From the NCBI RefSeq assembly GCF_001729745.1, contig NZ_CP017186.1, positions 1,612,001 through 1,676,000 of the forward strand: a stretch of DNA of 64,000 bases, given 5' to 3'. The translations under genes were made by a program, and so were the position numbers. This DNA comes from Enterobacter hormaechei subsp. hoffmannii (GTDB lineage Bacteria; Pseudomonadota; Gammaproteobacteria; Enterobacterales; Enterobacteriaceae). This document shows, one piece after another, positions 1,330-40,834 of this stretch (positions are counted from its first letter, which is position 1; each line of letters starts with the position of its first letter). A model generated the notes under the pieces. It made no database searches and was not told where the DNA came from. It saw nothing but the letters and a program-made list of their open reading frames with translations.

Positions 1330-1599
1330 GAGTCACTCTCTTATGACAGATGTAATTAGCGCAAAGAATAGGAAACGGCGCGGCAGACGCAAAGTGGTTT
1401 TACCCATCTTTACTCAGCCCCTTAGGGATTATGCTGGTTTTTTATTCTGGTAAAGCCTTTGTACTCAGAATGAAGTGCGGTATGCAAGGTGTATTCAGAT
1501 CAACCTCTTATAGGTCACTGAAAAATATTGCGTTATTTCCCTAAGGCCGCTAAGAGTTATTTCCGGATCGTCATAAAAACAGACAATAAGGCGAAGGAA

Positions 1600-3228
1600 A
1601 TGAAACCACAAACACGCATGCACTTTACGCTCTCTTTGTTAACCGCAGGGGTCCTGTGCGCCAGCACGGCAACCTGGGCGGCTAACGTGCCGGCAGGAAT
1701 CCAGCTGGCAGATAAGCAGGAACTGGTCAGGAACAACGGCAGTGAACCCGCCTCGCTCGACCCGCATAAAGTCGAAAGCGATGTCGAATTCAATATTATC
1801 AGCGATTTATTCGACGGGCTGGTCAGCGTCTCTCCGGCAGGTGAAATCCAGCCGCGCCTGGCGGAGAAATGGGAAAATAAAGATAACACCGTCTGGACTT
1901 TCCATCTGCGCCCGGGCATAACCTGGAGCGATGGCACCCCCATCACCGCGGAAGATATTGTCTGGAGCTGGCAGCGACTGGTCGACCCGAAAACCGTCTC
2001 TCCGTATGCCAGCTATCCCGGCAGTATGCGTATCGTCAACGGCACTGATATCGCAGAAGGCAAAAAAGCACCCGAGTCGCTGGGCGTGAAAGCCATCAAT
2101 GACACCACGCTGGAAGTGACGCTCACCCAGCCAAATGCTGCTTTCCTGGCGATGCTGGCTCACCCGTCTCTGGTGCCGATAGATAAAGTCCTGGTAGGTC
2201 GTTTCGGTGATAAATGGACCAAACCGGAGCACTTCGTCAGCAGCGGGGCCTATAAACTGTCACAGTGGGTGGTGAACGAACGCATTGTGGCGGTGCGAAA
2301 CCCGAAATACTGGGATAACGCACATACCGTCATCAACAAGGTGACCTATCTGCCCATTTCCTCTGAAGCCGCTGATGTCAACCGCTACAAAGCGGGGGAA
2401 ATCGACATCGCCTACACGGTGCCGATCAACCAGTTTGCTCAGCTGAAGAAAACGCTGGGGAGCGAGCTGGACGTATCGCCGCAGCTTGCCACCTATTATT
2501 ACGAATTCAACACCACCAGGCCGCCGTTCAGCGACGCCCGCGTGCGTAAGGCGCTGAATCTGGCGCTGGATAAAGATATTATCGCCGGGAAAGTTTTAGG
2601 GCAGGGGCAACGCCCGGCATGGCTCATCAGCCAGCCGGATATTGGCGGCGTCAAGTTACAGAACCCTGATTACGCCAGCTGGCCGATGGATAAACGCATT
2701 GCCGAGGCGAAAAAACTGCTGGCCGAAGCCGGATTTAACGACAGCCATCCGCTCAGCTTTAATCTCCTCTATAACACCTCGGAATCGCACCAGCGTATTG
2801 CGATTGCCGCCAGCTCGATGTGGAAGAAGAACCTCGGCGTAGAGGCGAAGCTGCAAAACCAGGAGTGGAAAACCATGCTTGATACCATGCACACCCATAA
2901 CTTTGACGCGGTGCGCTACGCCTGGATTGCTGATTACGATGACGCCGCAACCTTCCTGAATAACTTCCGTACCGGTGACAGCCAAAACACCACTCAGTAC
3001 AGCAATCCGGAATACGATCTGGCTCTGGTGAATGCGGCGAAGGCGAAAACGGCGGAGGAGCGCGGTAAGTTCTACCAGCAGGCAGAAGATCTGCTGGGGC
3101 GCGATGTGCCGGCGATCCCTGTCTATCACTACGTGCGCACGCACCTGGTGAAACCGTGGGTAGGGGGCTTCACGCCGGATAAGCTTGGCTACTACTACAC
3201 CAAAGATATGTACATCAAAAAGCACTAA
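1600..3228 (+). CDS. Oligopeptide ABC transporter substrate-binding protein (OppA/MppA family), orphan
   Basis: 542-residue periplasmic binding protein of the SBP_bac_5 family (OppA is 543, MppA 537). It begins with a Sec signal peptide of about 27 residues ending in TATWA, followed by the family core (LDPHKVESD, LAEKWENKDN, PAIPVYHYVR). I start at ATG 1600, with TAAGG eight bases upstream, rather than the longer 1528 frame whose extra 24 residues do not resemble a signal. No permease or ATPase genes accompany it, so it probably delivers peptides to a shared Opp/Dpp membrane complex encoded elsewhere. E. coli has nothing here between yccA and serT. OppA versus MppA orthology cannot be settled by eye. 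Confidence 0.85.
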   Translation: MKPQTRMHFTLSLLTAGVLCASTATWAANVPAGIQLADKQELVRNNGSEPASLDPHKVESDVEFNIISDLFDGLVSVSPAGEIQPRLAEKWENKDNTVWTFHLRPGITWSDGTPITAEDIVWSWQRLVDPKTVSPYASYPGSMRIVNGTDIAEGKKAPESLGVKAINDTTLEVTLTQPNAAFLAMLAHPSLVPIDKVLVGRFGDKWTKPEHFVSSGAYKLSQWVVNERIVAVRNPKYWDNAHTVINKVTYLPISSEAADVNRYKAGEIDIAYTVPINQFAQLKKTLGSELDVSPQLATYYYEFNTTRPPFSDARVRKALNLALDKDIIAGKVLGQGQRPAWLISQPDIGGVKLQNPDYASWPMDKRIAEAKKLLAEAGFNDSHPLSFNLLYNTSESHQRIAIAASSMWKKNLGVEAKLQNQEWKTMLDTMHTHNFDAVRYAWIADYDDAATFLNNFRTGDSQNTTQYSNPEYDLALVNAAKAKTAEERGKFYQQAEDLLGRDVPAIPVYHYVRTHLVKPWVGGFTPDKLGYYYTKDMYIKKH

Positions 3229-3331
3229 CGATCCGCGGTGGATATTATGCTGGTAAAACGGCCAATCTGTTGTCTATTCAACCGATTAAACGCATTTTGG
3301 CTATTTTTGAAGCGAACGAATGCGCGCACCC

Positions 3332-3360
3332 TTTACAGCGCGCGGTGAGGTGTTTATAGT
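3332..3360 (+). promoter_or_regulatory. Promoter of tRNA-Ser copy 1
   Basis: TTTACA (3332-3337) and TATAGT (3355-3360) are separated by exactly 17 bp and followed by a GC-rich discriminator (TCGCCTC), as expected for a stable-RNA promoter. The same two hexamers with the same spacing stand before the second tRNA-Ser copy at 9767-9795, but the spacer sequences differ. Confidence 0.75.
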
Positions 3361-3372
3361 TCGCCTCACTTA

Positions 3373-3460
3373 GGAAGCGTGGCCGAGCGGTTGAAGGCAC
3401 CGGTCTTGAAAACCGGCGACCCGAAAGGGTTCTAGAGTTCGAATCTCTACGCTTCCGCCA
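3373..3460 (+). tRNA. serT: tRNA-Ser(UGA), copy 1
   Basis: 88-nt class II tRNA including encoded CCA, with the long variable arm typical of tRNA-Ser. The anticodon loop CTTGAAA gives UGA. Acceptor stem GGAAGCG pairs with CGCTTCC. It is identical base for base to the copy at 9808-9895. It occupies the E. coli serT position after yccA. Its 3' end overlaps by 14 bp the antisense end of the reading frame of the ABC ATPase gene. Confidence 0.97.
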
Positions 3461-4283
3461 AATTCGAAACCCCTGCGATAGCAATATCGCAGGGGTTTTT
3501 GCTTTTGTTCTGGCTCTCCGCCATGTTACCCATGTTATAGCTTATCGTGATCCCGGCGTCGGCCTTACAGACCTGAGCTTTTACGCACCAGGTATCCGCG
3601 ATGTTCGAGGGCGTCAGCACCGCTTCGGGCGCACCCGTGGCTGCGATCTGCCCGGCCTTCATGAGGATCAGACGCTGACAATAATTGGCCGCAAGATTGA
3701 GATCGTGCAGTGCAACCACCACCGTAAGCGGCAGCTGTGAAACGAGCCGCATCAGCTCCAGCTGGTGCTGAATGTCCAGGTGGTTTGTCGGTTCATCGAG
3801 CAACAGCACCTGCGGCTGCTGGGCCAGCGCGCGGGCTATCTGACTTCGCTGTCGTTCTCCGCCTGACAAAGAGTGCCATCGCCGCTGGCGTAAGCTGCAT
3901 AACTGCATCAGGCCAATCGCCTGTTCAACCGCAGCCTCATCGTCGCGCGTGGTTCTCTGGAATGTTTTCCGGTAGGGCGTACGCCCCAGCCTGACCATAT
4001 CCTCAACGGTCAGTTCCCCGTCGACCTCAGCATGTTGCGGGACAAACGCCATGTGCTGCGCCCGTATTTTCAGCGGCATCAAGCCAAGCGTTGTGCCATT
4101 AAGCGCAACACGTTCGCTGTGTCGTGGAAACAGCCCGGCGAGGCAGCGCAGCAGCGTCGACTTGCCTGAGCCGTTTGGCCCTAACAGGCCGACAATCTGC
4201 CCGGATGGCAGGTCGAGATCGATATCCTTAAGCACCGTCTGCGCCTGTCGGGTTACGGTTAACCCGGCCACTGTTATATTCAT
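3447..4283 (-). CDS. Metal-chelate ABC importer, ATPase subunit
   Basis: 278-residue ATPase of the FecE/FhuC/BtuD class that powers uptake of metal chelates. Walker A GPNGSGKST at residues 35-43, signature LSGGERQR at 139-146, Walker B VLLLDEPT at 159-166, D-loop NHLD and switch His near 193. Start ATG 4283 overlaps the permease stop by 4 bp, which fixes it; the open frame further upstream is permease sequence in another frame. The family is usually about 255 residues. Here the frame runs on through the tRNA terminator and ends inside the tRNA-Ser gene on the opposite strand, so the last 20-25 residues look like read-through of the tRNA junction, not family sequence. Confidence 0.88.
   Translation of the reverse strand: MNITVAGLTVTRQAQTVLKDIDLDLPSGQIVGLLGPNGSGKSTLLRCLAGLFPRHSERVALNGTTLGLMPLKIRAQHMAFVPQHAEVDGELTVEDMVRLGRTPYRKTFQRTTRDDEAAVEQAIGLMQLCSLRQRRWHSLSGGERQRSQIARALAQQPQVLLLDEPTNHLDIQHQLELMRLVSQLPLTVVVALHDLNLAANYCQRLILMKAGQIAATGAPEAVLTPSNIADTWCVKAQVCKADAGITISYNMGNMAESQNKSKNPCDIAIAGVSNLAEA
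3471..3500 (+). terminator. Terminator of tRNA-Ser copy 1
   Basis: Ten-bp stem CCCTGCGATA / TATCGCAGGG with GCAA tetraloop, then GTTTTT. A near-identical hairpin follows the second copy, so the duplicated unit runs from promoter to terminator. Confidence 0.9.
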
Positions 4284-5311
4284 GGATGCTCCTTTCGGTT
4301 TTGATAAAGCAACGCCACAAAGACGGGGGCGCCCACCAGCGCAGTCACCACCCCGATGGGCAGAACCTGGTGCACGATCAGCGTGCGTGAGACGATATCG
4401 GCAAGGATCATAAAGTGGGCGCCGATGAGAAACGTCAGCGGGATCGAGCGGCGATGGCCCGGCCCGCATAGCATGCGCGTCACATGGGGAATGACCAGCC
4501 CGACAAACCCCACTGCGCCTGTGGCGCTCACCAACGTGGCGGTGACAACGGCACAGGTCAGCAATAAGACAATACGCACGGCGGTAACCGGGATCCCCAG
4601 CGTGGTGGAGACCTCATCCCCGAAGGTGAAGGTGTCCAGCGCCCGGGAAAAGAGCAATACCACCAGTAAACCCGCAAGCGTAACGGCCAGCGCCAGCAGC
4701 GCGTCAGGCCAGCGCACGCCGCTCAGACTCCCCATCAGCCAGAACATGACGCTACGGGACTGCTCGGCATTGGCGGACGTGCTGACGACGTACGCGGTCA
4801 TGGCGTTGAAGAGCTGGGTGCCCGCAATACCGGCCAGCAAAATGCGCGACGGGCTTTCACTCATCCCGTTTGTAATCACCATGATGAGCGCAAAGGCGGC
4901 GCAGGAGCCGACAAACGCACCGCTGCTCACGCCAATCACGCTTCCCCCCATGCCGAGAAGCATCACGCAGACGGCCCCCAGCGAGGCGCCCGCGGAAATC
5001 CCCAGCAGATAAGGCTCAGCCAGAGGGTTACGCAGGATCGACTGTAACACCAGCCCGCACAGCGCCAGGCCACCGCCGCTGCACGCGGCCATCACTGCCC
5101 GGCTCATGCGATATTGCCAGACGATACCCTCCTCCGTTTGTGGCAACGCATAAGAGGTCAAACCCAGTCCGTTGAGGATCGCTTTCCCGGTACTGGCATA
5201 CGACACCGGCATATCACCGATACTGGCGGCAAAAACCAGCATTAGCGGCAGCGCCATGACGCCTGCTGCCAGTAAACCTTGCTGGCGGCGGTCAAAAGCG
5301 AAATGACTCAT
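4280..5311 (-). CDS. Metal-chelate ABC importer, permease subunit (FecCD family)
   Basis: 343-residue polytopic inner-membrane permease of the FecCD/BtuC family, with about ten hydrophobic segments. It carries the family blocks RNPLAEPYLLGISAGASLGA near residue 93 and GAVGFVGLVIPHVTR near 264, followed by the coupling region that docks on the ATPase. It overlaps the neighbouring genes by four bases on each side, so binding protein, permease and ATPase are translationally coupled. A single permease gene implies a BtuC-like homodimer. The substrate cannot be read from this subunit; iron-siderophore, cobalamin, heme or zinc chelates are all transported by the family. Confidence 0.9.
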   Translation of the reverse strand: MSHFAFDRRQQGLLAAGVMALPLMLVFAASIGDMPVSYASTGKAILNGLGLTSYALPQTEEGIVWQYRMSRAVMAACSGGGLALCGLVLQSILRNPLAEPYLLGISAGASLGAVCVMLLGMGGSVIGVSSGAFVGSCAAFALIMVITNGMSESPSRILLAGIAGTQLFNAMTAYVVSTSANAEQSRSVMFWLMGSLSGVRWPDALLALAVTLAGLLVVLLFSRALDTFTFGDEVSTTLGIPVTAVRIVLLLTCAVVTATLVSATGAVGFVGLVIPHVTRMLCGPGHRRSIPLTFLIGAHFMILADIVSRTLIVHQVLPIGVVTALVGAPVFVALLYQNRKEHP

Positions 5312-6315
5312 TGTTCATCCCGGAAAGAAGCCAGCCGATCGCTGATAAGCTCAACCGCATCGACGTTACGTAATGAAGGGTTTAACGACATTGCCGGCAC
5401 CACAATAATGTGGTTGTTCCTGACCGCAGGCATGTTCTTCGTCACCGGGTCATTACGCAAGAATGCTTTTTTTACCTCAACGTCATCGGCAGGGTAAAGC
5501 CTGCGGGACATCCCGGCGATAACAATCACGTCCGGCTGCGACTGGGCAATATGTTCCCAGGTTACAGCCGGCCATTCGTCATGAGAGTCAATAATGTTCT
5601 TCAACCCCAGAGTTCGGCTGATCCAGCCAGGCGCGCCGTAATTCCCCGCCACCCAGGGATCGCCATTCAGACGGCTACTTGAGAACCAGAATACGACGCG
5701 AAGCGGTTTCGCTGAGACGCGCGCCTGGGCCTTTTTGATACGTTCCGTCAGCGTATGATTAAGCTGCTCACCTCGCGCGGAAACATCAAATATCGTCGCC
5801 AGATCTGTCACTTCCCGTGTGATTTCGGCCAGCGAAAACGGCGCGCTGCGTGCTCCGTCTGCGTTTGACTTTTCCGTCACCGCTTTATCCGTGCAGTCGG
5901 CAGGAGAGATCCACGTATTAATCCCCAGCGAGGCAAACTGCTCACGGGTGCCCACTTCTCCCTGCGGACCAATGTGCCAGTGATACTGCGCGAGAACGAG
6001 CTCAGGTTTCTGTCCCACCACGGCTTCAAAGGAGGGGGAATTATCTGCAAGCCGGGGGATATTTTTCCCGGCATCTGCCAGCGGATCCGGGAGCTTGCCG
6101 AACCAGACCGACGTTGCGGCGATCTTTTTCTCCAGCCCCAGTGCGAGCAGTAATTCTGTTTCATGCTGTCCCACGGTCACGACGCGCTGAGGAGCCTGCG
6201 CAAAGGTCTGCTTTACGCCGCAATTTTCAAACGTGAGGGGCCATGAGGTTGCTGAGAAAGCGGCAGGCACCGTGGAGAGCAATAAAGCCAGAAATAACCC
6301 TTTTTTAAGTAACAT
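5308..6315 (-). CDS. Metal-chelate ABC importer, periplasmic binding protein
   Basis: 335-residue periplasmic binding protein of the FepB/BtuF/TroA-helical-backbone class (PF01497 type). A Sec signal peptide of about 21 residues ends in AAFSA. The mature part opens with the family's PQRVVTVGQHETELLLALG segment. Two lobes are joined by a central helical stretch, and QYHWHIG near residue 117 offers possible metal or chelate ligands. First gene of the SBP-permease-ATPase operon. No clear Shine-Dalgarno precedes ATG 6315; TTG at 6330 is a weaker alternative. A Zur-like palindrome overlaps its -10 region, so zinc or a zinc chelate is my preferred substrate guess. There is no B12 riboswitch upstream. 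Confidence 0.85.
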   Translation of the reverse strand: MLLKKGLFLALLLSTVPAAFSATSWPLTFENCGVKQTFAQAPQRVVTVGQHETELLLALGLEKKIAATSVWFGKLPDPLADAGKNIPRLADNSPSFEAVVGQKPELVLAQYHWHIGPQGEVGTREQFASLGINTWISPADCTDKAVTEKSNADGARSAPFSLAEITREVTDLATIFDVSARGEQLNHTLTERIKKAQARVSAKPLRVVFWFSSSRLNGDPWVAGNYGAPGWISRTLGLKNIIDSHDEWPAVTWEHIAQSQPDVIVIAGMSRRLYPADDVEVKKAFLRNDPVTKNMPAVRNNHIIVVPAMSLNPSLRNVDAVELISDRLASFRDEQ

Positions 6316-6328
6316 AGAACACAATCCC

Positions 6329-6351
6329 AAATTGTTATGTTATAACATAAT
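6329..6351 (-). promoter_or_regulatory. Candidate Zur operator
   Basis: The core at 6333-6347 is TGTTATGTTATAACA and matches 13 of 14 informative positions of the enterobacterial Zur core TGTTATA-N-TATAACA. The site overlaps the inferred -10 box and start of transcription of the importer operon, where a repressor would act. It does not resemble a Fur box. The consensus is from memory; no genome-wide scan was possible. Confidence 0.6.
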
Positions 6352-6374
6352 ACATATATTGTGATTGAGAGCAA
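6347..6374 (-). promoter_or_regulatory. Promoter of the metal importer operon
   Basis: On the minus strand TTGCTC (6369-6374) and TATTAT (6347-6352) are separated by 16 bp. Transcription would start near 6340, giving a leader of about 25 nt to ATG 6315. The -10 box lies inside the candidate Zur site. Confidence 0.5.
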
Positions 6375-6488
6375 CACGCTCACCGTCGCTTGTTGCAGAA
6401 ACGAAAGGCTGGACTATTCTCAACATACCCACCTGGCATTCGCGGGTTGCCTGAAAAACAACAAGATTTCTGATTTGGGGTAGTGAGG

Positions 6489-8102
6489 ATGAAAAAGATC
6501 CTGCTCGCGTTTGCGTTCTGTTTTGCCTCCCTGAGCGCCTTCTCATCGTATGCCGCTGAGCCCCGCCAGGCGCCTTCTGAGCAGGAGCGCGCCCGGACGG
6601 TCTATATCTTTCATCAGCCGATCGTCATGCTTCAGGCGAAATTTGGCCTGACCACGCCGGAGGAGCGCGTTTTACGCATCCGCAACACCCTGCGCAATTT
6701 TACCGAGGCGGACGTGCGTGAGCCGCTCACTATCGTCCCCGTGACCCGCTATAACCAGCAGGGGCGGCTGATCGTGATGAACGGTAAGCCCGTGATGCTG
6801 CTGACGGAAGGGGATTTGGACGAAGGGGACGATCTCACCCTCGATCAGGCGGCGCAGCGCGTGCTGGCGCGCATGGAAGCGCAGAGAATGGCGCTGCGCG
6901 ACCAATACGATACCGGCTGGCTGGCGCTGTCGACGGTAAAAGCTGCCGCTGGCCTGCTGGCGCTTTTGCTGCTCTGCTATGGCGCCTGGCGATCCTGGCG
7001 CTGGTTTCGACGCGTCTACCGTCTGCGTATTGTGGAGAATCGCAGCCGGGTGCCGCAAAGCTGGCGGCGGTACATTGGCGCAATTGAGATTCGGCTTTAC
7101 GCCTTGCTGATGTTCCTGCTGGGTTTAATCGGCTTTTACGTCTGGCTGAGCTGGGCATTCAGTCTGTTTCCGTGGACGCGGGTGTGGGGCACGTCGCTGG
7201 GAGACTGGTCGCTTCGCGTGGTGCAGCAAATTGCCCTGGCGATTGTCTCGGCTTTGCCGGGGCTGACGATTGTTCTGATCATTTTCCTCATTACCGCTTT
7301 TATTCTGAAGCTTCTGAGGATGGTGCTGAATCAGGTGGAGGCTGGTCGTCTGCAACTTCCCAGCGTACATCCGGAAACCGTGGGGGCAACCCGTAAGCTC
7401 ATTTCCGTCGCCGTCTGGCTATTTGCTCTCTCCGCTGCCTGGCCGTTTCTCCCCGGCGCAAACTCACTGGCGTTTAAAGGTATTAGCGTCTTCTTCGGCC
7501 TGATGTTAACGCTGGGTTCGGCAGGGGTGATGAACCATGCCATGAGCGGTCTGGTCCTGATTTACTCCCGCGCACTGCGTAAAGGCGATGTCATTCGGGT
7601 GGCGGATAACGAAGGTAAGGTCAGTGAAATAGGCATGCTGGCGACCAAAATTATTACCCGGGAAAATTATGTCGTTACCGTGCCCAATGCGGTGGTGGTG
7701 AGCGGTAAGATCACCAACCTTAGCGCGCTACAGCCCGATGGCAGCCTCAATCTGACGGTCAGCGTCACTATCGGTTATGACACCCCATGGCGTCAGGTGC
7801 ATGCCATGCTGGAGCTGGCCGCGAAACGGGCAAAAGGGATTGATCTTTCCGAGCCGCCGCTGGTGCGCCAGTTAGGGTTAATGGACTGGTATATCGCCTA
7901 CGAGTTGCAGGTTCGTCTGCTGCCCGACCAGTCCCTCGCGGTTGCCCGCAATGAACTGCATAGCCAGATACAGGATGTGTTTAACGAATTTAACGTGCAG
8001 ATCATGTCTCCGAATTTTGTTATGCAGCCAGAGGGCAGCGTAATGGTTGCCAAAGAGAACTGGTATACCGCGCCCGCCAAACCCCCTCAGGGCGAAACCT
8101 GA
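6489..8102 (+). CDS. MscS-family mechanosensitive ion channel with periplasmic domain
   Basis: 537-residue inner-membrane protein. A signal peptide (residues 1-24, ending SSYAA) leads into a periplasmic N-terminal domain of about 115 residues, then about five membrane segments. The pore helix and beta-domain signature of MscS follow, around LGSAGVMNHAMSGLVLIYSRALRKGDVI at roughly 343-370 (quoted in part as a motif region). The soluble C-terminus forms the cytoplasmic vestibule. The channel should open on membrane tension and release solutes on hypo-osmotic shock. It is longer than MscS (286) and resembles the medium-size homologues. GGGG eight bases upstream supports ATG 6489. Transcribed divergently from the importer; it lies between the two tRNA-Ser copies and has no counterpart at this E. 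coli position. Confidence 0.85.
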   Translation: MKKILLAFAFCFASLSAFSSYAAEPRQAPSEQERARTVYIFHQPIVMLQAKFGLTTPEERVLRIRNTLRNFTEADVREPLTIVPVTRYNQQGRLIVMNGKPVMLLTEGDLDEGDDLTLDQAAQRVLARMEAQRMALRDQYDTGWLALSTVKAAAGLLALLLLCYGAWRSWRWFRRVYRLRIVENRSRVPQSWRRYIGAIEIRLYALLMFLLGLIGFYVWLSWAFSLFPWTRVWGTSLGDWSLRVVQQIALAIVSALPGLTIVLIIFLITAFILKLLRMVLNQVEAGRLQLPSVHPETVGATRKLISVAVWLFALSAAWPFLPGANSLAFKGISVFFGLMLTLGSAGVMNHAMSGLVLIYSRALRKGDVIRVADNEGKVSEIGMLATKIITRENYVVTVPNAVVVSGKITNLSALQPDGSLNLTVSVTIGYDTPWRQVHAMLELAAKRAKGIDLSEPPLVRQLGLMDWYIAYELQVRLLPDQSLAVARNELHSQIQDVFNEFNVQIMSPNFVMQPEGSVMVAKENWYTAPAKPPQGET

Positions 8103-8133
8103 GGCCCCGGTTTTCCCAAGGTAAGCCAAAAGA

Positions 8134-8661
8134 TCACAGTTTCTGATCGACAATCGCCGATTTTATACGGGTCATCGCCAGAATGTTTTTTGAACGCATA
8201 TTCAATTTCTCGAGGATCCTCACGCGGTAGGTGCTGGTCGTTTTTTGTGACAGTTGCAGCTTTTTCGCGATTTCATGATTTTCCATATGGAAAAGCTTTA
8301 GCACGTCATATTCGCGTCGGGTAAAGGAGTGTGTCCTGAGCGCCCGATAAAAACGCATCAGCTGCTGAAAAGGGTGAGCAGTAAAATGCATCGACGAATA
8401 GATAATATTATCAATTCTCACCGCGCTGTTGGCTTCTATCTCATGCATCAGGACAATGTAATCACGCTTGACTTTTTTGACCTGCTGAATGGTTTTATTG
8501 CGTAACTTATCCTGTTCAATCGCAATGATAAAATCCAGCTCGGGATCGACCTCATAAAGATGGTGAATATCCTCCTCATCGCGAATCAAATGGGTAGATG
8601 TCAGTGAGCTTGAGACACCGTGGCAAAGGTAATAGTTATCGCTGATAAAAATAAAATTCAT
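8134..8661 (-). CDS. LuxR-type transcriptional regulator with degenerate receiver-like N-terminus
   Basis: 175-residue DNA-binding protein. The C-terminal 60 residues form a LuxR/GerE helix-turn-helix (FTRREYDVLKLF, then NHEIAKKLQLSQKTTSTYRVRILEKL, residues about 112-155). The first 100 residues start FIFISDNYYLCHGVSSSL, like the receiver-related domains of BglJ, YjjQ or RcsA-type regulators. I see no convincing phosphorylatable Asp pocket, so it probably works without a kinase or with a partner protein. It is downstream of the 283-codon gene by 17 bases, so the two form an operon. Sequence is more AT-rich than its neighbours, which suggests transfer. Targets are unknown. Confidence 0.8.
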   Translation of the reverse strand: MNFIFISDNYYLCHGVSSSLTSTHLIRDEEDIHHLYEVDPELDFIIAIEQDKLRNKTIQQVKKVKRDYIVLMHEIEANSAVRIDNIIYSSMHFTAHPFQQLMRFYRALRTHSFTRREYDVLKLFHMENHEIAKKLQLSQKTTSTYRVRILEKLNMRSKNILAMTRIKSAIVDQKL

Positions 8662-8678
8662 AATTAATGGGCAGGGTA

Positions 8679-9530
8679 TTAGATAAAATTCATTAAAAAT
8701 CTGAGAGGCTTAATCTGTAGTATTTTCTGCCAGACAGCGGCGAGGTCGACGACCCCGGCCATCGACAGCAGAACCAGAATAATCAGCAGCGTAGATAGCG
8801 TTATCGCAAACATAAAACGCGTAATTTTTTTCTGCATTTTTTGCTGATGCGTTACCCGCTGGTCCTCTTTTTCATACTCGACCATGGTGGTAATAGCCTG
8901 GCCCTGCACGTAGTACACCTTACCCTCTTCGCTGAGATCGCCCGTGATCACGAGCGACTCAAGTAAGAGCGCGATTTTTCTGCTAAACGACTCATTTTTG
9001 ATATGTTTATACCAAAGTGTGCCGTAAAGCATGGCGATCACTTCCCGCTGGGTGAAACCAAACGAAACGCGCGAAGGGCGCTGGTTGACGTAGTCGGTCA
9101 CCAGCAGCCTGAGCAAGTTGTAACGGTCCCGGCTGATGGTTTCTGAATCAGATTTCAGGCCAGAAATACAGCGCCCTTTTAGACGAGCAAGGGCCGTTTT
9201 TAAGGTGATGATTTTCGTATAATGGTCAAAGGCAAACGGGATAATGCCTTTGTAAGCCTGAAACCCATTGCGCTTATAGTGAATGATTTCAGCCTGCATT
9301 TCGCTGATATCTTCCACGTTCATACTGACATCTTCGCTTTTATGCATCGGGCAGAGCACAACGTTGCTGCTTTCGTGCTTCTTCAAAATATAACGCGTAT
9401 TGTCGACATCTTTTAAGTACACCAGAAAATAGTCATGCGGGTTGTTTTTTTGCGCACCGTTCTGGATCAGCCACGGCAGAAATTTACGCCAGAGAATAAG
9501 TCTGTAGTTATCGGTATCGAATAATTTCAT
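8679..9530 (-). CDS. Unrecognised protein with a C-terminal membrane anchor
   Basis: I do not recognise this 283-residue protein. There is no signal peptide. Residues 1-235 are hydrophilic and mixed alpha/beta in character (HDYFLVYLKDVDNTRYILKK near the start), with a Lys/Gln-rich stretch at 231-236. One strong hydrophobic segment covers about 237-263 and a short basic tail follows. The topology fits a cytoplasmic domain anchored to the inner membrane. It is the first gene of an operon with the LuxR-type regulator, which suggests a membrane-held sensor or sequestering partner for that regulator. It is AT-rich relative to its surroundings and confined to the tRNA-bracketed segment. Confidence 0.75.
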   Translation of the reverse strand: MKLFDTDNYRLILWRKFLPWLIQNGAQKNNPHDYFLVYLKDVDNTRYILKKHESSNVVLCPMHKSEDVSMNVEDISEMQAEIIHYKRNGFQAYKGIIPFAFDHYTKIITLKTALARLKGRCISGLKSDSETISRDRYNLLRLLVTDYVNQRPSRVSFGFTQREVIAMLYGTLWYKHIKNESFSRKIALLLESLVITGDLSEEGKVYYVQGQAITTMVEYEKEDQRVTHQQKMQKKITRFMFAITLSTLLIILVLLSMAGVVDLAAVWQKILQIKPLRFLMNFI

Positions 9531-9766
9531 GGAAAATCTCTTATCGCAGTGACCTGCGTGAATAGGGTCTTACAAGGGCATATTGAGGTGGCAATGTTGC
9601 ACGGATAAGCTGCGGTGTATGAAAAAGAGTCTAGATCACAAACTTTCATTCTAATAAGTTTATGTGATGTAAAAATAAATGTTTACATTTTAGCCAGCCG
9701 ATGACGAAGAAGTGATCGGAGCGGAAGGGAATGACGCAAGAAGCTCAACGTAATGCAATTTCCTGC

Positions 9767-9795
9767 TTTACATCATGCTCAGAGATGTTTATAGT
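9767..9795 (+). promoter_or_regulatory. Promoter of tRNA-Ser copy 2
   Basis: TTTACA (9767-9772), 17-bp spacer, TATAGT (9790-9795), discriminator GCGCCTC. The hexamers and spacing are the same as before copy 1. The -10 flank GATGTTTATAGT-CGCCTCACTT is shared with copy 1, while the rest of the spacer and upstream DNA differ. Confidence 0.75.
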
Positions 9796-9807
9796 GCGCC
9801 TCACTTT

Positions 9808-9895
9808 GGAAGCGTGGCCGAGCGGTTGAAGGCACCGGTCTTGAAAACCGGCGACCCGAAAGGGTTCTAGAGTTCGAATCTCTACGCTTCCGCCA
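9808..9895 (+). tRNA. serT: tRNA-Ser(UGA), copy 2
   Basis: 88-nt tRNA-Ser identical to the gene at 3373-3460, same orientation, 6.4 kb downstream, with full promoter, encoded CCA and terminator. E. coli K-12 has one serT. Together the two copies bracket the importer, MscS and LuxR-operon segment. Either copy could be the ancestral gene: yccA lies before the first, the agp region after the second. Confidence 0.96.
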
Positions 9896-9906
9896 AATTC
9901 GAAAAC

Positions 9907-9935
9907 CCTGCGATAGCAATATCGCAGGATTTTTT
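9907..9935 (+). terminator. Terminator of tRNA-Ser copy 2
   Basis: Nine-bp stem CCTGCGATA / TATCGCAGG with the same GCAA loop as copy 1, followed by A and six T. The convergent mgtE stop is two bases further on, so mgtE may use the same hairpin in the other direction. Confidence 0.88.
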
Positions 9936-9937
9936 CG

Positions 9938-10939
9938 TTATTCCAGCCCAAGCGTATACTGTGCGATTTTGAAGTAGATAATGAGCCCGGTACCGTCGAT
10001 CAGCGTGGCGATAAACGGCGCGGAAACGACCGCCGGGTCGATTTTGCAGCGTTTCAATACCATCGGGATCACCGATGAGACAATGGCGCTCCACAGCGTA
10101 ATGCAGACAAGCGTCAGGCTGACGATAAGCGTGATTTCCATCCCAATGCCCATCATCCAGGCACGAACGCAGCCCGCCAGGCCTAGCGTGGCGGCAATCA
10201 TTAACGAGGTGCTCATCTCTTTGCGCAGCACGCGACCCACGTCGCGAAGGTGGACTTCACCCAGCGCCATGGCGCGCACCAGCGTCGAGGTAATCTGCGT
10301 CCCGCTGTTTCCGCCGGTGCCAATCAGCAGCGGAATAAAGAACGCCAGCGCAATGGCGGATTCCAGCGCCTCTTCAAAATGCTGGATCACCGAGCTGGTA
10401 TACGCTTCCGCGACAAACAGCAGCAGCAGCCAGACGGAGCGTTTCTTCCACAGGCTAAAGGCGCTGGTTTCCAGATAGGGCTTCTCCAGCGGCAGCGTTG
10501 CCCCCTGAAGCTGGGCATCTTCAGTAACGTCATCTTCCAGCAGATGGGCGATTTCACGCTCGGTAAGGCAGCCCACCAGCTTGCCGTGGGTCACCACCGG
10601 TACGACATCCGCACCTGCGTGCGCCAGCAACCCGGCGACATCCGCCCGCTCATCTTCCGGTTTAAGCTGGATAAAATCCGATATCATCAGCCCCTTAACG
10701 GGCTGTACGGTATCCGTGGCCTGCAATAATTTACGTACGGCAATCAAACCCGCGAGGCGACCGTTGTCTTCGATAAAAATATGTGACGGAATATCATCAT
10801 CTTTTAATTTTTCAAAGAACTGCTCGCGTGCCAGAGCCACGCATAATGAAATATCAATAACGATAAAATCGGTATTCATATATTGCGCGATGGCGCTGTC
10901 GTTAAAAGCCAGATTTTGGTTGTGAATAGCGTAAGGCAT
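9938..10939 (-). CDS. mgtE: Magnesium transporter MgtE, short form
   Basis: 333-residue MgtE-type Mg2+ channel. Residues about 14-130 form a tandem CBS pair, the cytosolic Mg2+ sensor. Five membrane segments follow and contain the signature PLLIGTGGNSGTQ at about 208-220 in the pore region. Full MgtE (about 450 residues) has an N-terminal superhelical domain before the CBS pair; it is absent here, as far as I can see by natural design because the start has a good Shine-Dalgarno (GGGAAG, five bases before ATG 10939). The gene is monocistronic and preceded by an M-box-like leader. Not in E. coli at this place. Confidence 0.88.
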   Translation of the reverse strand: MPYAIHNQNLAFNDSAIAQYMNTDFIVIDISLCVALAREQFFEKLKDDDIPSHIFIEDNGRLAGLIAVRKLLQATDTVQPVKGLMISDFIQLKPEDERADVAGLLAHAGADVVPVVTHGKLVGCLTEREIAHLLEDDVTEDAQLQGATLPLEKPYLETSAFSLWKKRSVWLLLLFVAEAYTSSVIQHFEEALESAIALAFFIPLLIGTGGNSGTQITSTLVRAMALGEVHLRDVGRVLRKEMSTSLMIAATLGLAGCVRAWMMGIGMEITLIVSLTLVCITLWSAIVSSVIPMVLKRCKIDPAVVSAPFIATLIDGTGLIIYFKIAQYTLGLE

Positions 10940-11004
10940 TGTAACTTCCCTTTGAATAATAAAATCTCTCAGGGGCGAGCAAGACAGGGCATGTCGGAAA
11001 GGAG

Positions 11005-11163
11005 ATCCCCACGTCCTGGGTTCAGCACTGTACACCGTATCCCGTAAGGGAAGTTATACTGGCAAAGCCTTGATTCGACAGTGCCTGTTTTACCCTGTGC
11101 CGGTTCTCTCGAACCCACCAGAGCGATAACGTGTATTTGTACAGGAGCCTCGCCATAACGAGA
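11005..11163 (-). ncRNA. M-box (ykoK leader) magnesium riboswitch candidate
   Basis: The mgtE leader on the minus strand carries the blocks of the M-box aptamer in order. GTTATGGCGAGGCTCCTGTA (the conserved core GAGGCTCCTGTAC at 11139-11151) corresponds to the GTTAGGTGAGGCTCCTR segment. TTCGAGAGAACCGGCA then GGGTAAAACAG corresponds to the GTCGAGAGACGCCA...GGGTCAACAG block. ACAGTGCT at 11024-11031 corresponds to the 3' core. The M-box senses Mg2+ and switches off magnesium transporter genes, which fits mgtE directly downstream. The platform between about 10940 and 11005 is not resolved: I find no convincing terminator stem by eye, so control could be translational. The match is from remembered consensus, not a covariance search. 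Confidence 0.75.
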
Positions 11164-11327
11164 TCGTTGTAAAACGTGAGGGATAATACGCTTATTTAAA
11201 ATGGCTGCTGAGGAATTTAAATAATGTTTAAGTATGGTTTAAATGAATATTATTGAATGAATGTTGACGTTTTATTTAACTATTTTCACTTCTAATGGGG
11301 AATTCTGATGTTACCGGGGAGAGTAAA

Positions 11328-11828
11328 ATGGCATGGCTGGACACGCTGCTGGATCATTTTGCGCATTATCCAACGCATCTCTTCGCGTTGCTCGTTGTTA
11401 TGGCACTGAGTAAATCAACGGTACTGATCTCTTCCGTGCTCCCGCCCGCATCGATCATGCTGCTGGCGGGGATTGCCGTCAGCCAGTCGAGTATGCATCC
11501 GGCGCTGACGTGGCTGGCGGTGGTGATGGGCGCTACGGCAGGATCGGTGCTGAATTACCATATCGGCCAGCTGATGGGGCATACCCGGCGAGTGTCACGC
11601 TTCACGGCAAAACATGCCGGGAAGTTTTTGCGGGTACAGCACCAGCTGCATAAAAATGGCCTGCTGGCGTTGTTCACCTCGCGTTTCCTGGCGGTACTGC
11701 GCTATATCGTGCCGCTGGCGGCGGGCATGCTCAGGCTGAGCGCGATAAAGGTTTACGCCATCAGCCTGCTTTCAGCCTGCGCATGGGCGGCGCTGTATGT
11801 CGGCATCGTCACCGGCATCAGCCTCTGA
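11328..11828 (+). CDS. DedA-family inner-membrane protein, small
   Basis: 166-residue SNARE-associated/DedA (VTT) family protein. It has hydrophobic segments at about 16-38, 50-72 and 118-165, and the family's characteristic FTSRFLAVLRYIVPLAAGM stretch with Arg and Pro at about 111-130. DedA proteins act in envelope lipid flipping and proton-motive-force homeostasis. It is shorter than DedA/YohD (about 200), mainly at the N-terminus. GGGGAGAG four bases ahead of ATG 11328 sets the start; an in-frame ATG at 11295 lacks such a site. It is divergent from mgtE across a 388-bp gap that holds the M-box leader and otherwise AT-rich promoter sequence. Confidence 0.82.
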   Translation: MAWLDTLLDHFAHYPTHLFALLVVMALSKSTVLISSVLPPASIMLLAGIAVSQSSMHPALTWLAVVMGATAGSVLNYHIGQLMGHTRRVSRFTAKHAGKFLRVQHQLHKNGLLALFTSRFLAVLRYIVPLAAGMLRLSAIKVYAISLLSACAWAALYVGIVTGISL

Positions 11829-11933: not shown

Positions 11934-13175
11934 ATGAGAAAAGCACTACTCGCAGTTGCCGTGGCAGGTACCCTTGCCGTGACCTTTGGCGCACAGGCGC
12001 AGGACACACCGGACGGCTATCAGCTGGAACAGGTACTCATCATGAGCCGCCACAACCTGCGTGCGCCGCTCGCCAATAACGGCAGCGTGCTGGAGCAGTC
12101 CACGCCGAAGCAGTGGCCGGAGTGGGACGTCCCGGGTGGACAGCTCACCACCAAAGGGGGGGTACTGGAAGTGTATATGGGTCACTATATACGCGAGTGG
12201 CTGGCAGAGCAGGGGATGGTGAAGACGGGTGAATGCCCGCAAGCGGATACCGTCTATGCCTACGCCAACAGCCTCCAGCGCACCGTGGCGACCGCGCAGT
12301 TCTTTATCACCGGCGCGTTCCCGGGGTGCGATGTGCCTGTGCATCATCAGGAAAAAATGGGCACCATGGACCCCACCTTCAATCCGGTCATTACCGATAA
12401 TTCCCCTGAGTTTCGTGAGAAAGCGCTGAAAGCGATGGAGACAGAACGGCAGAAAATGCAGCTGGATGAAAGCTACAAACTGCTGGAGCTGCTGACAAAC
12501 TATAGCGACTCGCCGTCCTGCAAGGAGAAAAAAGTCTGTTCCCTGACGGAGGCGAAAGATACGTTCAGCGCCGATTATGAAAAAGAGCCGGGCGTCTCCG
12601 GGCCGCTGAAAGTGGGTAACTCGCTGGTGGATGCGTTCACCCTACAGTATTACGAAGGATTCCCGGCAGACCAGGTGGCATGGGGGGAAATCAAAACCGA
12701 TCAGCAGTGGCGCGTGCTGTCGAAGCTGAAAAACGGCTACCAGGACTCGCTGTTTACCTCGACGGACGTGGCGCAGAACGTGGCTAAACCGTTGGTGAAG
12801 TACATTGATAAAGCGCTGGTGACCGAACAGGCCAAAGCGCCAAAAATTACCCTGCTGGTGGGGCACGACTCCAACATTGCCTCGCTGCTGACCGCGCTGG
12901 ATTTCAGGCCGTATCAGCTGCACGACCAGCAGGAACGAACCCCGATTGGCGGTAAAATTGTCTTCCAGCGCTGGCATGACAAAAACACTAACCAGGAGCT
13001 GATGAAAATTGAGTATGTCTACCAGAGTTCTGAGCAGTTGCGTAATGCCAGCGTGCTGTCGCTGCAATCTCCTGCGCAGCGCGTGGCGCTGGAGCTGAAG
13101 GGCTGTCCGGTAGATGGCAACGGCTTCTGTCCGATCGATAAATTCAATGCGGTGATGAACAACGCGGCGAAATAG
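11934..13175 (+). CDS. agp: Periplasmic glucose-1-phosphatase
   Basis: 413 residues, the exact E. coli Agp length, with a 22-residue signal peptide (ending GAQAQ). It belongs to the histidine acid phosphatase family: RHNLRAP (the RHGxRxP-type motif, His nucleophile) at about 38-44 and the second catalytic GHDSN at about 311-315. Pairs of Cys form periplasmic disulfides. It hydrolyses glucose-1-phosphate so that the glucose can be taken up, and it has some phytase activity. GAGGAATTAGGG precedes the ATG. Convergent with yccJ as in E. coli. Confidence 0.96.
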
Positions 13176-37487: not shown

Positions 37488-37513
37488 ATGGGTGAGGCGG
37501 TATCACCCGCACC

Positions 37514-37597
37514 GGCGGGGATTGACTCGCTTCGCTCTCAGTCTGTCCAACTGGCTGCGCCAGTTGTCGAACCCCGGTCGTGGGTTCTCATCCCCCC
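37514..37597. repeat. tRNA-Ser-associated palindromic repeat, copy A
   Basis: About 84 bp with hairpins CAACTGGCTGCGCCAGTTG (37548-37566) and a GAACCCC...GGGTTC palindrome (around 37569-37588). It lies downstream of tRNA-Ser(GGA) copy 1 on the minus strand, beyond its terminator. A longer version, with an extra insert, sits at 40585-40687, joined directly to a tRNA 3' fragment. Confidence 0.75.
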
Positions 37598-37623
37598 GCA
37601 GACGTGCAACATGCGAAAAAAAA

Positions 37624-37657: not shown

Positions 37658-37745
37658 TGGCGGTGAGGGGGGGATTCGAACCCCCGATACGTTGCCGTAT
37701 ACACACTTTCCAGGCGTGCTCCTTCAGCCACTCGGACACCTCACC
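37658..37745 (-). tRNA. serX: tRNA-Ser(GGA), copy 1
   Basis: 88-nt class II tRNA with encoded CCA; acceptor stem GGTGAGG/CCTCACC, anticodon GGA in CTGGAAA, long variable arm. E. coli serX lies just before ghrA, as the second copy does here. It is identical to 40747-40834, same orientation, 3.1 kb apart. Confidence 0.97.
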
Positions 37746-40531: not shown

Positions 40532-40584
40532 AGCCCGCATTTTCATGCGAGCTCTTCTTCAAATATGGCGGTGAGGGGGGGATT
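40532..40584 (-). pseudogene. tRNA-Ser(GGA) 3' remnant with its terminator
   Basis: TGGCGGTGAGGGGGGGATT (40566-40584) is exactly the 3' terminal 19 nt of tRNA-Ser(GGA), CCA included. It is followed on the minus strand by the same terminator hairpin (40532-40553) as the whole copies. At 40585 homology breaks and palindromic repeat copy B begins. So a third tRNA copy was here and lost its 5' 69 nt. Confidence 0.85.
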
Positions 40585-40687
40585 GACTCGCTTCGCTCGC
40601 CCTTCGGGCAGCCTGTTCGCTACGCTCTCAGTCTGTCCAACTGGCTGCGCCAGTTGTCGAACCCCGGTCGGGGGTTCTCATCCCCCC
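40585..40687. repeat. tRNA-Ser-associated palindromic repeat, copy B
   Basis: Same sequence as 37514-37597 with an internal extra of about 28 bp (CGCCCTTCGGGCAGCCTGTT region, itself a hairpin). It contains the palindromes CAACTGGCTGCGCCAGTTG and GAACCCCGGTCGGGGGTTC. One end abuts the truncated tRNA at position 40584. Confidence 0.75.
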
Positions 40688-40711
40688 CTTGCAGAGAATA
40701 TAAAAGAAAAA

Positions 40712-40746: not shown

Positions 40747-40834
40747 TGGCGGTGAGGGGGGGATTCGAACCCCCGATACGTTGCCGTATACACACTTTCC
40801 AGGCGTGCTCCTTCAGCCACTCGGACACCTCACC
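40747..40834 (-). tRNA. serX: tRNA-Ser(GGA), copy 2
   Basis: 88 nt, identical to 37658-37745, same strand, in the E. coli serX position upstream of ghrA. With copy 1 it brackets the pirin/hydrolase/LysR segment and the tRNA remnant. Confidence 0.97.

Follow-up and report, generated by a model that had tools for sequence, protein, structure and literature searches.

In a study of recombination hotspots, 29% of the hotspots had tRNA or tmRNA genes (Oliveira et al. 2017, PMC5635113, according to the available part of the paper). The locus analysed here lies in a 64,000-nucleotide stretch of Enterobacter hormaechei subsp. hoffmannii (contig NZ_CP017186.1, positions 1,612,001–1,676,000 of the forward strand; this whole stretch is called the window), where two tRNA-Ser(UGA) genes of the serT type bracket a set of accessory genes. 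The interval between the two copies was termed slot I, and the interval from copy 2 to an agp-like gene was termed slot II. As far as the accessible text of PMC5635113 goes, the locus resembled the integrase-less hotspots described there in three ways: variable genes lay between fixed core neighbours, the slot of the window yielded no mobility gene, and a neighbouring gene, here an oppA-like gene, bore a hint of homologous recombination. It differed from them in its twin tRNA borders, both of which were kept when the slot was empty, and no paired-tRNA slot is described in that portion of the paper.

The same tRNA gene, serT, with foreign genes beside it as here, is found at Salmonella pathogenicity island 5 (SPI-5; PMC6465278, available part). 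The high-pathogenicity island (HPI) at asn tRNA genes spreads by homologous recombination that carries adjoining chromosomal DNA along (Schubert et al. 2009, PMC2606025, available part), as appears to be the case here; however, the HPI is an integrase-bearing pathogenicity island, whereas the present locus carried metabolic cassettes, with no integrase found, between two tRNAs. In Pseudomonas, a second tRNA-Ser(UGA) was likewise gained by tandem duplication of serTGA (PMC7661048, available part), but those were laboratory duplications of 45–290 kb, whereas the present pair had a period of about 220 bp, extended across a genus group, and enclosed a cargo slot. As far as these accounts were accessible, the slot works like the known integrase-less hotspots (PMC5635113) and like the flank-mediated spread of the HPI (PMC2606025). 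A bracket of twin tRNA genes that also exists without cargo was seen at two tRNA-Ser loci lying 28 kb from each other; no description of such a bracket was found among the titles and abstract openings listed from the open-licence literature, and the available parts of PMC2884548 and PMC3771936 held nothing on the serT twin locus.

Twin tRNA-Ser(UGA) units and the states of slot I

The serT locus was best explained, with a probability of about 0.72, as a tRNA-anchored plasticity region of two consecutive slots, with an old tandem duplication and homologous reshuffling of cargo. Slot I is exchangeable, and the Fec importer, MscS and LuxR set of the window is one of the alternative cargoes, which were apparently exchanged by ordinary recombination and not by a mobile-element enzyme.

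The comparison covered a genus-level group of 61 genomes, one per species, which included Enterobacter, Leclercia, Lelliottia, Silvania, Huaxiibacter, and Pseudenterobacter. The serT gene was present as a twin in 52 genomes and as a single copy in 7, with no match in two incomplete genomes (G043 and G054), and all 59 serT-bearing loci were compared. Twelve of the 52 twins were free of cargo, with the copies 209–221 bp apart, and the other 40 held several alternative gene sets in a gap of 866–19,755 bp. The oppA-like gene was the left neighbour at 58 of the 59 loci; it was not called in the frameshifted, 78% complete genome G001, which was left out of the classes, trees, and promoter types. Differing accessory genes were thus found between the same conserved neighbours in relatives, as in a hotspot. 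The exchangeable slot proposed in an earlier note on this DNA was borne out by the empty twins, the alternative cargoes, and the single-tRNA genomes, and the outcome that had been named beforehand as its refutation, the same genes and both tRNAs in all relatives, did not occur.

The cargo classes were defined by homology clustering and Pfam searches of representatives. Set (a), the Fec importer with or without MscS and LuxR, was found in 10 genomes. Set (b) contained an alpha/beta hydrolase and was found in 17 genomes, 14 of which also had a Dlt-like operon (AMP-binding, MBOAT, and DltD); YjhX, methyltransferase, or GGDEF genes were added at some of these loci. Set (c) comprised GH43/MFS/LamB, LacI/inositol-phosphatase/ABC-transporter, or BCCT/PQQ sets in 10 genomes and G001, and set (d) comprised two other cargo loci.

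The tRNA units of the window and their neighbours were as follows.
1528–3228, plus strand: oppA-like gene, which is conserved to the left of copy 1 and contains the left crossover of genome G017
3332–3360, plus strand: promoter of tRNA-Ser(UGA) copy 1, TTTACA, 17 nt, TATAGT (from the sequence)
3373–3460, plus strand: tRNA-Ser(UGA) copy 1, serT-like (ARAGORN; 88/88 identical to copy 2)
3470–3500, plus strand: terminator of copy 1, CCCCTGCGATA-GCAA-TATCGCAGGGG followed by a T run (from the sequence)
9767–9795, plus strand: promoter of copy 2, TTTACA, 17 nt, TATAGT, F type (from the sequence)
9808–9895, plus strand: tRNA-Ser(UGA) copy 2 (ARAGORN; 88/88 identical to copy 1)
9906–9935, plus strand: terminator of copy 2 (from the sequence)
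11934–13175, plus strand: agp-like gene (histidine phosphatase branch 2), named by its E. coli position and used as the right boundary for measuring slot II

An identical 88-nt tRNA pair, a TTTACA-17-TATAGT promoter and a GCAA-loop terminator for each copy, and a repeat running from promoter to terminator with differing DNA outside it had all been claimed from the sequence, and all of them held. The pair was confirmed by ARAGORN and alignment, with both copies on the plus strand, and both promoters and both terminators were present. The repeat around the two copies was 170 nt long at 93% identity, and the DNA just outside it was identical at 8/50 and 14/60 positions, which is about chance level. 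The pair consisted of two complete, separately promoted copies in the same direction, as expected of a tandem tRNA duplication. Outside the tRNA bodies, 33 of 42 nt upstream and 37 of 40 nt downstream were identical; in the upstream part the hexamers were conserved and the promoter spacer had diverged. Since the spacer diverged while the tRNA bodies remained identical, the pair looks old and not like a fresh copy, and the tRNA body looks to have been kept constant by selection or gene conversion after an old duplication. At the 12 cargo-free loci, both tRNA units were complete and their promoters distinct. Because these cargo-free genomes keep both separately promoted tRNAs, the second copy is best seen as an old duplication, not as an attachment-site (att) scar of the window cargo.

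A linked three-change tRNA-Ser(UGA) allele (6 C>T, 61 T>C, 77 A>G) was observed in copy 1 of 14 twin genomes with several cargo classes; copy 2 of these genomes retained the common allele, and the single copy of G056 had the three-change allele.

Tandem serT genes were also seen in other genera. They lay 240–367 bp apart with their own promoters in G224, G374, G308, and G296, and 136–139 bp apart without a second promoter in G166, G345, and G405; G410 had three copies. Among the named loci, at least 21 of 80 had two serT copies within the 10-kb flanks, a count that could miss wider pairs: L135 and L139 are twins whose pair exceeds the flank, and L138 was too short. The 21 include two Raoultella loci, with serT copies at 1,173 and 1,462 bp, and the isolate RIT691. 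The tandem pairs of other genera were probably independent events.

Movement of cargo and rival explanations

The clearest trace of movement was found in G017, which carries Fec cargo and whose sister species G024 is empty (rpoB-rpoC, hereafter rpoBC, 99.16% alike). When the informative sites of G017 left of copy 1 were compared, 111 sided with G024 and 9 with the Fec carrier G037 from −2900 to −1700, whereas from −1500 to −300 107 favoured G037 and 50 favoured G024. The bins at −1700 to −1500 (15:10), at −300 to −100 (15:13), and at the tRNA (2:1) were mixed. The switch, about 1.6 kb upstream of copy 1, indicates that the import into G017 began in the oppA-like gene. In G017, the 500 bp that follow copy 2 were 79–83% identical to G024 and 77–82% to G037; from +0.6 kb the identities were 90% to G024 versus 75–86% to G037, and from +1.35 kb 90–97% versus 70–88%. 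Judged from the sequences, this pattern has the signature of a homologous import with its flank, the right end of which is uncertain. It was the one recombination tract seen in a flanking core gene, in G017 against G024 and G037. Over 45 pairs, Fec identity correlated with that of the oppA-like gene at r = 0.93 versus 0.63 with rpoBC.

The signals around the tRNAs followed the cargo. Among 51 loci, the copy 2 promoter was of the E type at 12/12 empty and 16/17 set (b) loci, and of the F type at the other 22 loci, including all 10 Fec-bearing ones, and at the set (b) locus of G034. Among the 28 genomes of the E type, the promoter stretches of copy 2 were 97.2% alike and those of copy 1 91.5% (378 pairs each), which fits recent spread or constraint. 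The hairpin behind copy 1 differed from the serT type at 17/17 set (b) loci and was of the serT type at 10/10 Fec loci; the terminator behind the tRNA thus follows the cargo.

In the proposed course of events, an ancestor of the Enterobacter group would have acquired the serT unit of promoter, tRNA, and terminator as a tandem pair with a spacing of about 220 bp, or the twin pair itself may have spread by recombination. The comparison of loci showed that metabolic and transport cassettes, free of integrases where scanned, settled behind both tRNA 3' ends, in slot I between the copies and in slot II from copy 2 to agp, where successive cassettes are stacked in layers. Cassettes or the empty state would move between species mainly by homologous recombination in conserved flanks, using the oppA-like gene on the left, which was mapped once, and, on the right, DNA that starts at copy 2 and reaches no further than about 1 kb beyond it. 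Gain or loss of cargo would cost the cell no tRNA-Ser(UGA), as both units are kept at cargo-free loci.

Slot II, measured at 54 loci from the 3' end of copy 2 (or of the only copy, at 6 loci) to agp, was 0.15–81 kb long, and 2,038 bp in the window. It was layered in G007, G025, and G010, which were 99.1–99.2% alike in rpoBC. Compared with G007, G025 had an extra layer of about 6.1 kb immediately after copy 2, which included genes for an AraC-type regulator and a DUF2264 protein; behind it the G007 DNA resumed at +128, and G010 had about 34 kb more between copy 2 and this layer, with methylaspartate mutase and CobQ-like genes (L228 and L229). The remainder of the 34-kb layer appeared by eye to hold cobalamin-type genes. 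The same 6.1-kb layer was added in G024 relative to G017. The hairpin behind copy 2 was of one foreign type at 10/10 layered loci and of the serT type at 11 layer-free dioxygenase loci. In G032 and G009, a displaced tRNA end, CCGCCAAATTT (GCGCCAAATTT), with a serT-type terminator stood at the far border of the inserted DNA, which indicates that the tRNA 3' end was the point of entry for at least these inserts. At its far end, the G032 insert of about 13.7 kb carried an IcmF gene of type VI secretion, and the G009 insert of 56.6 kb carried polysaccharide-export genes. No integrase was found near these far borders by eye or in the 4 open reading frames scanned, the copy 2 side being scanned in part, and no displaced serT-type terminator was found in 8 assembled slot II right sides. 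As a separate observation, the first slot II gene of Leclercia-like genomes (L007:16707-17174; family F30, 6 genomes) encoded a protein with a transposase-type helix-turn-helix (PF01527).

These borders, and the start of set (b) and of the slot II layers right behind a tRNA 3' end with a different terminator, agree with a classical tRNA island, in which an integrase acting at the tRNA 3' end duplicated att and was later lost. Salmonella reportedly has a single serT, with effector cargo in SPI-5. The occupation of serT by SPI-5 (PMC6465278, available part) also speaks for such an island. This origin is unlikely, as both tRNA units are whole and separately promoted at the empty loci. An integrase that inserts DNA at the 3' end of a tRNA gene repeats that end only and not the upstream promoter, whereas the repeat seen here extends beyond the 3' end to the whole unit and its upstream promoter. 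In slot I of the 59 loci, no tRNA fragment of at least 13 nt was found outside the copies, although shorter remnants of the size seen in G032 and G009 would escape this search; the one listed match, in G001, was the first tRNA copy of that genome, which has an indel. A search of slot I at these loci for displaced terminators of the serT type was likewise negative, and one match in G026, right of copy 2, was chance-like. In other genomes, Pfam revealed no recombinase among the 31 representatives of slot I cargo, where not every short open reading frame was scanned. Within the window genome, 9 matches to the tyrosine recombinase family PF00589 were found, none of them inside 1612001–1676000 of contig C1, and Pfam, applied to the cargo only, found no recombinase of other families among the cargo proteins of 3373–9935, in agreement with the claim that the 6.3-kb cargo has no integrase. 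An integrase island with a lost integrase was rejected for slot I, as the empty twins keep both complete tRNA units. The att duplication that the earlier note had proposed there as one of two possibilities was not supported, given the 12 cargo-free twins, the cargo-free tandems in other genera, and the lack of slot I remnants.

Several observations weigh against homologous reshuffling as the explanation. On an rpoBC tree that covered 57 genomes and had E. coli as its root, with several deep nodes weakly supported and with G001 and G051 (no rpoB found) left out, the six states of slot I required at least 14 changes, compared with a mean of 35.3 and a minimum of 27 in 1,000 label shuffles; slot I therefore also carries a clear vertical signal. 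The 14 changes themselves speak for the two-slot explanation, as do those of the binary traits, of which the empty state changed 7 times, Fec 5 times, and set (b) 6 times. The Fec copies were only 73–94.5% identical, so that most Fec cargo is old and could partly have been inherited and lost instead of exchanged. The Dlt set did not discriminate (r = 0.87 with rpoBC and 0.84 with the flank), and the hydrolase alone tracked neither of them closely (0.66 and 0.62). A single import tract was mapped, with a blurred right end, the sample of one genome per species did not reveal exchange within species, and the remnants in G032 and G009 mean that some slot II DNA was inserted at a tRNA end and not by flank recombination.

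The vertical signal and the age and divergence of Fec would suit vertical inheritance from a large ancestral slot of which lineages lost different parts, as would the partial sets (Fec; Fec and Lux; Fec, MscS, and Lux) within the one clade to which the window belongs. However, Fec and the alpha/beta-hydrolase set occurred together at 0/51 classified loci, the copy 2 promoter type was tied to cargo class, and G017 showed a crossover signature, which leave this explanation improbable as well.

Recombination of the twins with each other (RecA-dependent pop-out and pop-in) as the main route of cargo change would be favoured by 88 identical bases in direct orientation and by C49T, which was shared by both serT copies in G023 only, but it is very improbable and was rejected, as pop-out would leave one tRNA, all 12 cargo-free loci have two, the 7 single-copy genomes (a five-member clade with two named Lelliottia, G038, and the Pseudenterobacter G056) lie outside the window's clade, and 88 bp is short for frequent RecA events. 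From the idea that recombination between tandem copies captured DNA, gene conversion between the serT copies survives as a suggestion from C49T in G023; the capture itself does not agree with the mapped crossover, which lay about 1.6 kb upstream in the oppA-like gene and not in the tRNA.

Cargo genes of the window genome

The cargo between the copies was 6.3 kb long and, with slot II, contained the following genes.
3447–6330, minus strand: importer, consisting of an ABC ATPase, a FecCD-type permease (4280–5311), and a periplasmic binding protein (5308–6330) (Pfam/NCBIfam)
6483–8102, plus strand: MscS-type channel of 539 amino acids (Pfam)
8134–8661, minus strand: LuxR-type (GerE) regulator (Pfam)
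8679–9530, minus strand: 283-amino-acid protein with a C-terminal hydrophobic stretch, seen by eye (open reading frame)
9938–11828: slot II, with an MgtE/CBS-domain protein (minus strand) and a VTT-domain (DedA-like) protein (plus strand)

The top NCBIfam models of the importer proteins were EitA/EitC and F420-0-type, all under the cut-off. When the cargo was clustered with 58 other loci, the MscS-type channel recurred in slot I of G027 and G028, and the LuxR-type regulator in slot I of G027, G028, G037, and G039, whereas the 283-amino-acid protein had no cluster partner in slot I of other genomes. This protein had no Pfam or NCBIfam match, so that only one member of the LuxR pair described in the earlier note belongs to that family. 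Its homologues outside slot I were 62–65% identical in G002, G005, G012, and G023, with a short 48% match in G026. In three related genomes (L256, L257, and L258), homologues of the LuxR-type protein (54–56%) and of the 283-amino-acid protein (62–63%) lay about 1 kb apart at another locus; owing to this joint occurrence, the two may form a pair that travels together.

The ATPase frame of the importer was observed to run antisense through the copy 1 terminator to a stop inside the tRNA 3' end (3447–3500), as if the original C-terminus had been cut at the slot border. The palindrome TGTTATAACA at 6338–6347, just upstream of the importer, occurred once in the window, compared with 0.01 expected, and may resemble the operator of a metal regulator of the Zur kind.

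In E. coli K-12, a single serT lies in opposite orientation beside hyaA-F, and none of the slot I genes of the window is annotated at this locus, as had been stated of the accessory genes. When window positions 3000–11000 were searched against E. coli, some match was found in 5,374 of 5,426 genomes, none covering 80% of the query; among the 20 matches listed, coverage was 3% and located under the tRNA.

Paired tRNA-Ser genes at two loci

A second tRNA-Ser pair lies 28 kb from the serT pair and brackets LysR, pirin, and isochorismatase genes.
37658–37745 and 40747–40834, minus strand: tRNA-Ser(GGA) pair, 88/88 identical and 3.1 kb apart

The spacing of this pair varied from 263 bp to 35.8 kb in the 53 genomes with both copies on one contig among the matches listed (8 at 263–603 bp, 43 at 2.1–3.8 kb, and two at 7.9 and 35.8 kb), a count from which 8 of the 61 genomes, without both copies on one contig among those matches, were left out. 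By eye, tRNA-like debris was seen downstream of each tRNA-Ser(GGA) copy on the minus strand (~40560–40700 and 37500–37600); the debris after 40747 ended in CCCCCCTCACCGCCATATT and a second terminator, resembling the remnant of an earlier tRNA 3' end. Elsewhere in the genome, at C1 2811207–2831079, four tRNA genes of equal score lay within 20 kb, which we take, by eye, to be the asn tRNA cluster, an island site in other enterobacteria.

It is possible, if doubtful, that pairing of tRNA-Ser genes, at serT (UGA) as well as at tRNA-Ser(GGA), represents a double docking design that recurs, forming a dedicated exchange zone of the Enterobacter group in which cargo class is tied to the copy 2 promoter type. 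If so, the pair would provide two identical docking ends and a spare copy, and cargo could enter, stack, and swap beside either while a working tRNA was always kept.

Many exchange hotspots are without integrases, and their mode of loading is unclear. Across a genus group, the serT locus occurs empty, filled, layered, or with a single tRNA, and its borders are clear, so that an order of events becomes readable and testable: tRNA duplication, insertion at tRNA ends, and spread by recombination in the flanks. The locus also hints at a reason for which surplus tRNA genes might be retained next to variable DNA.

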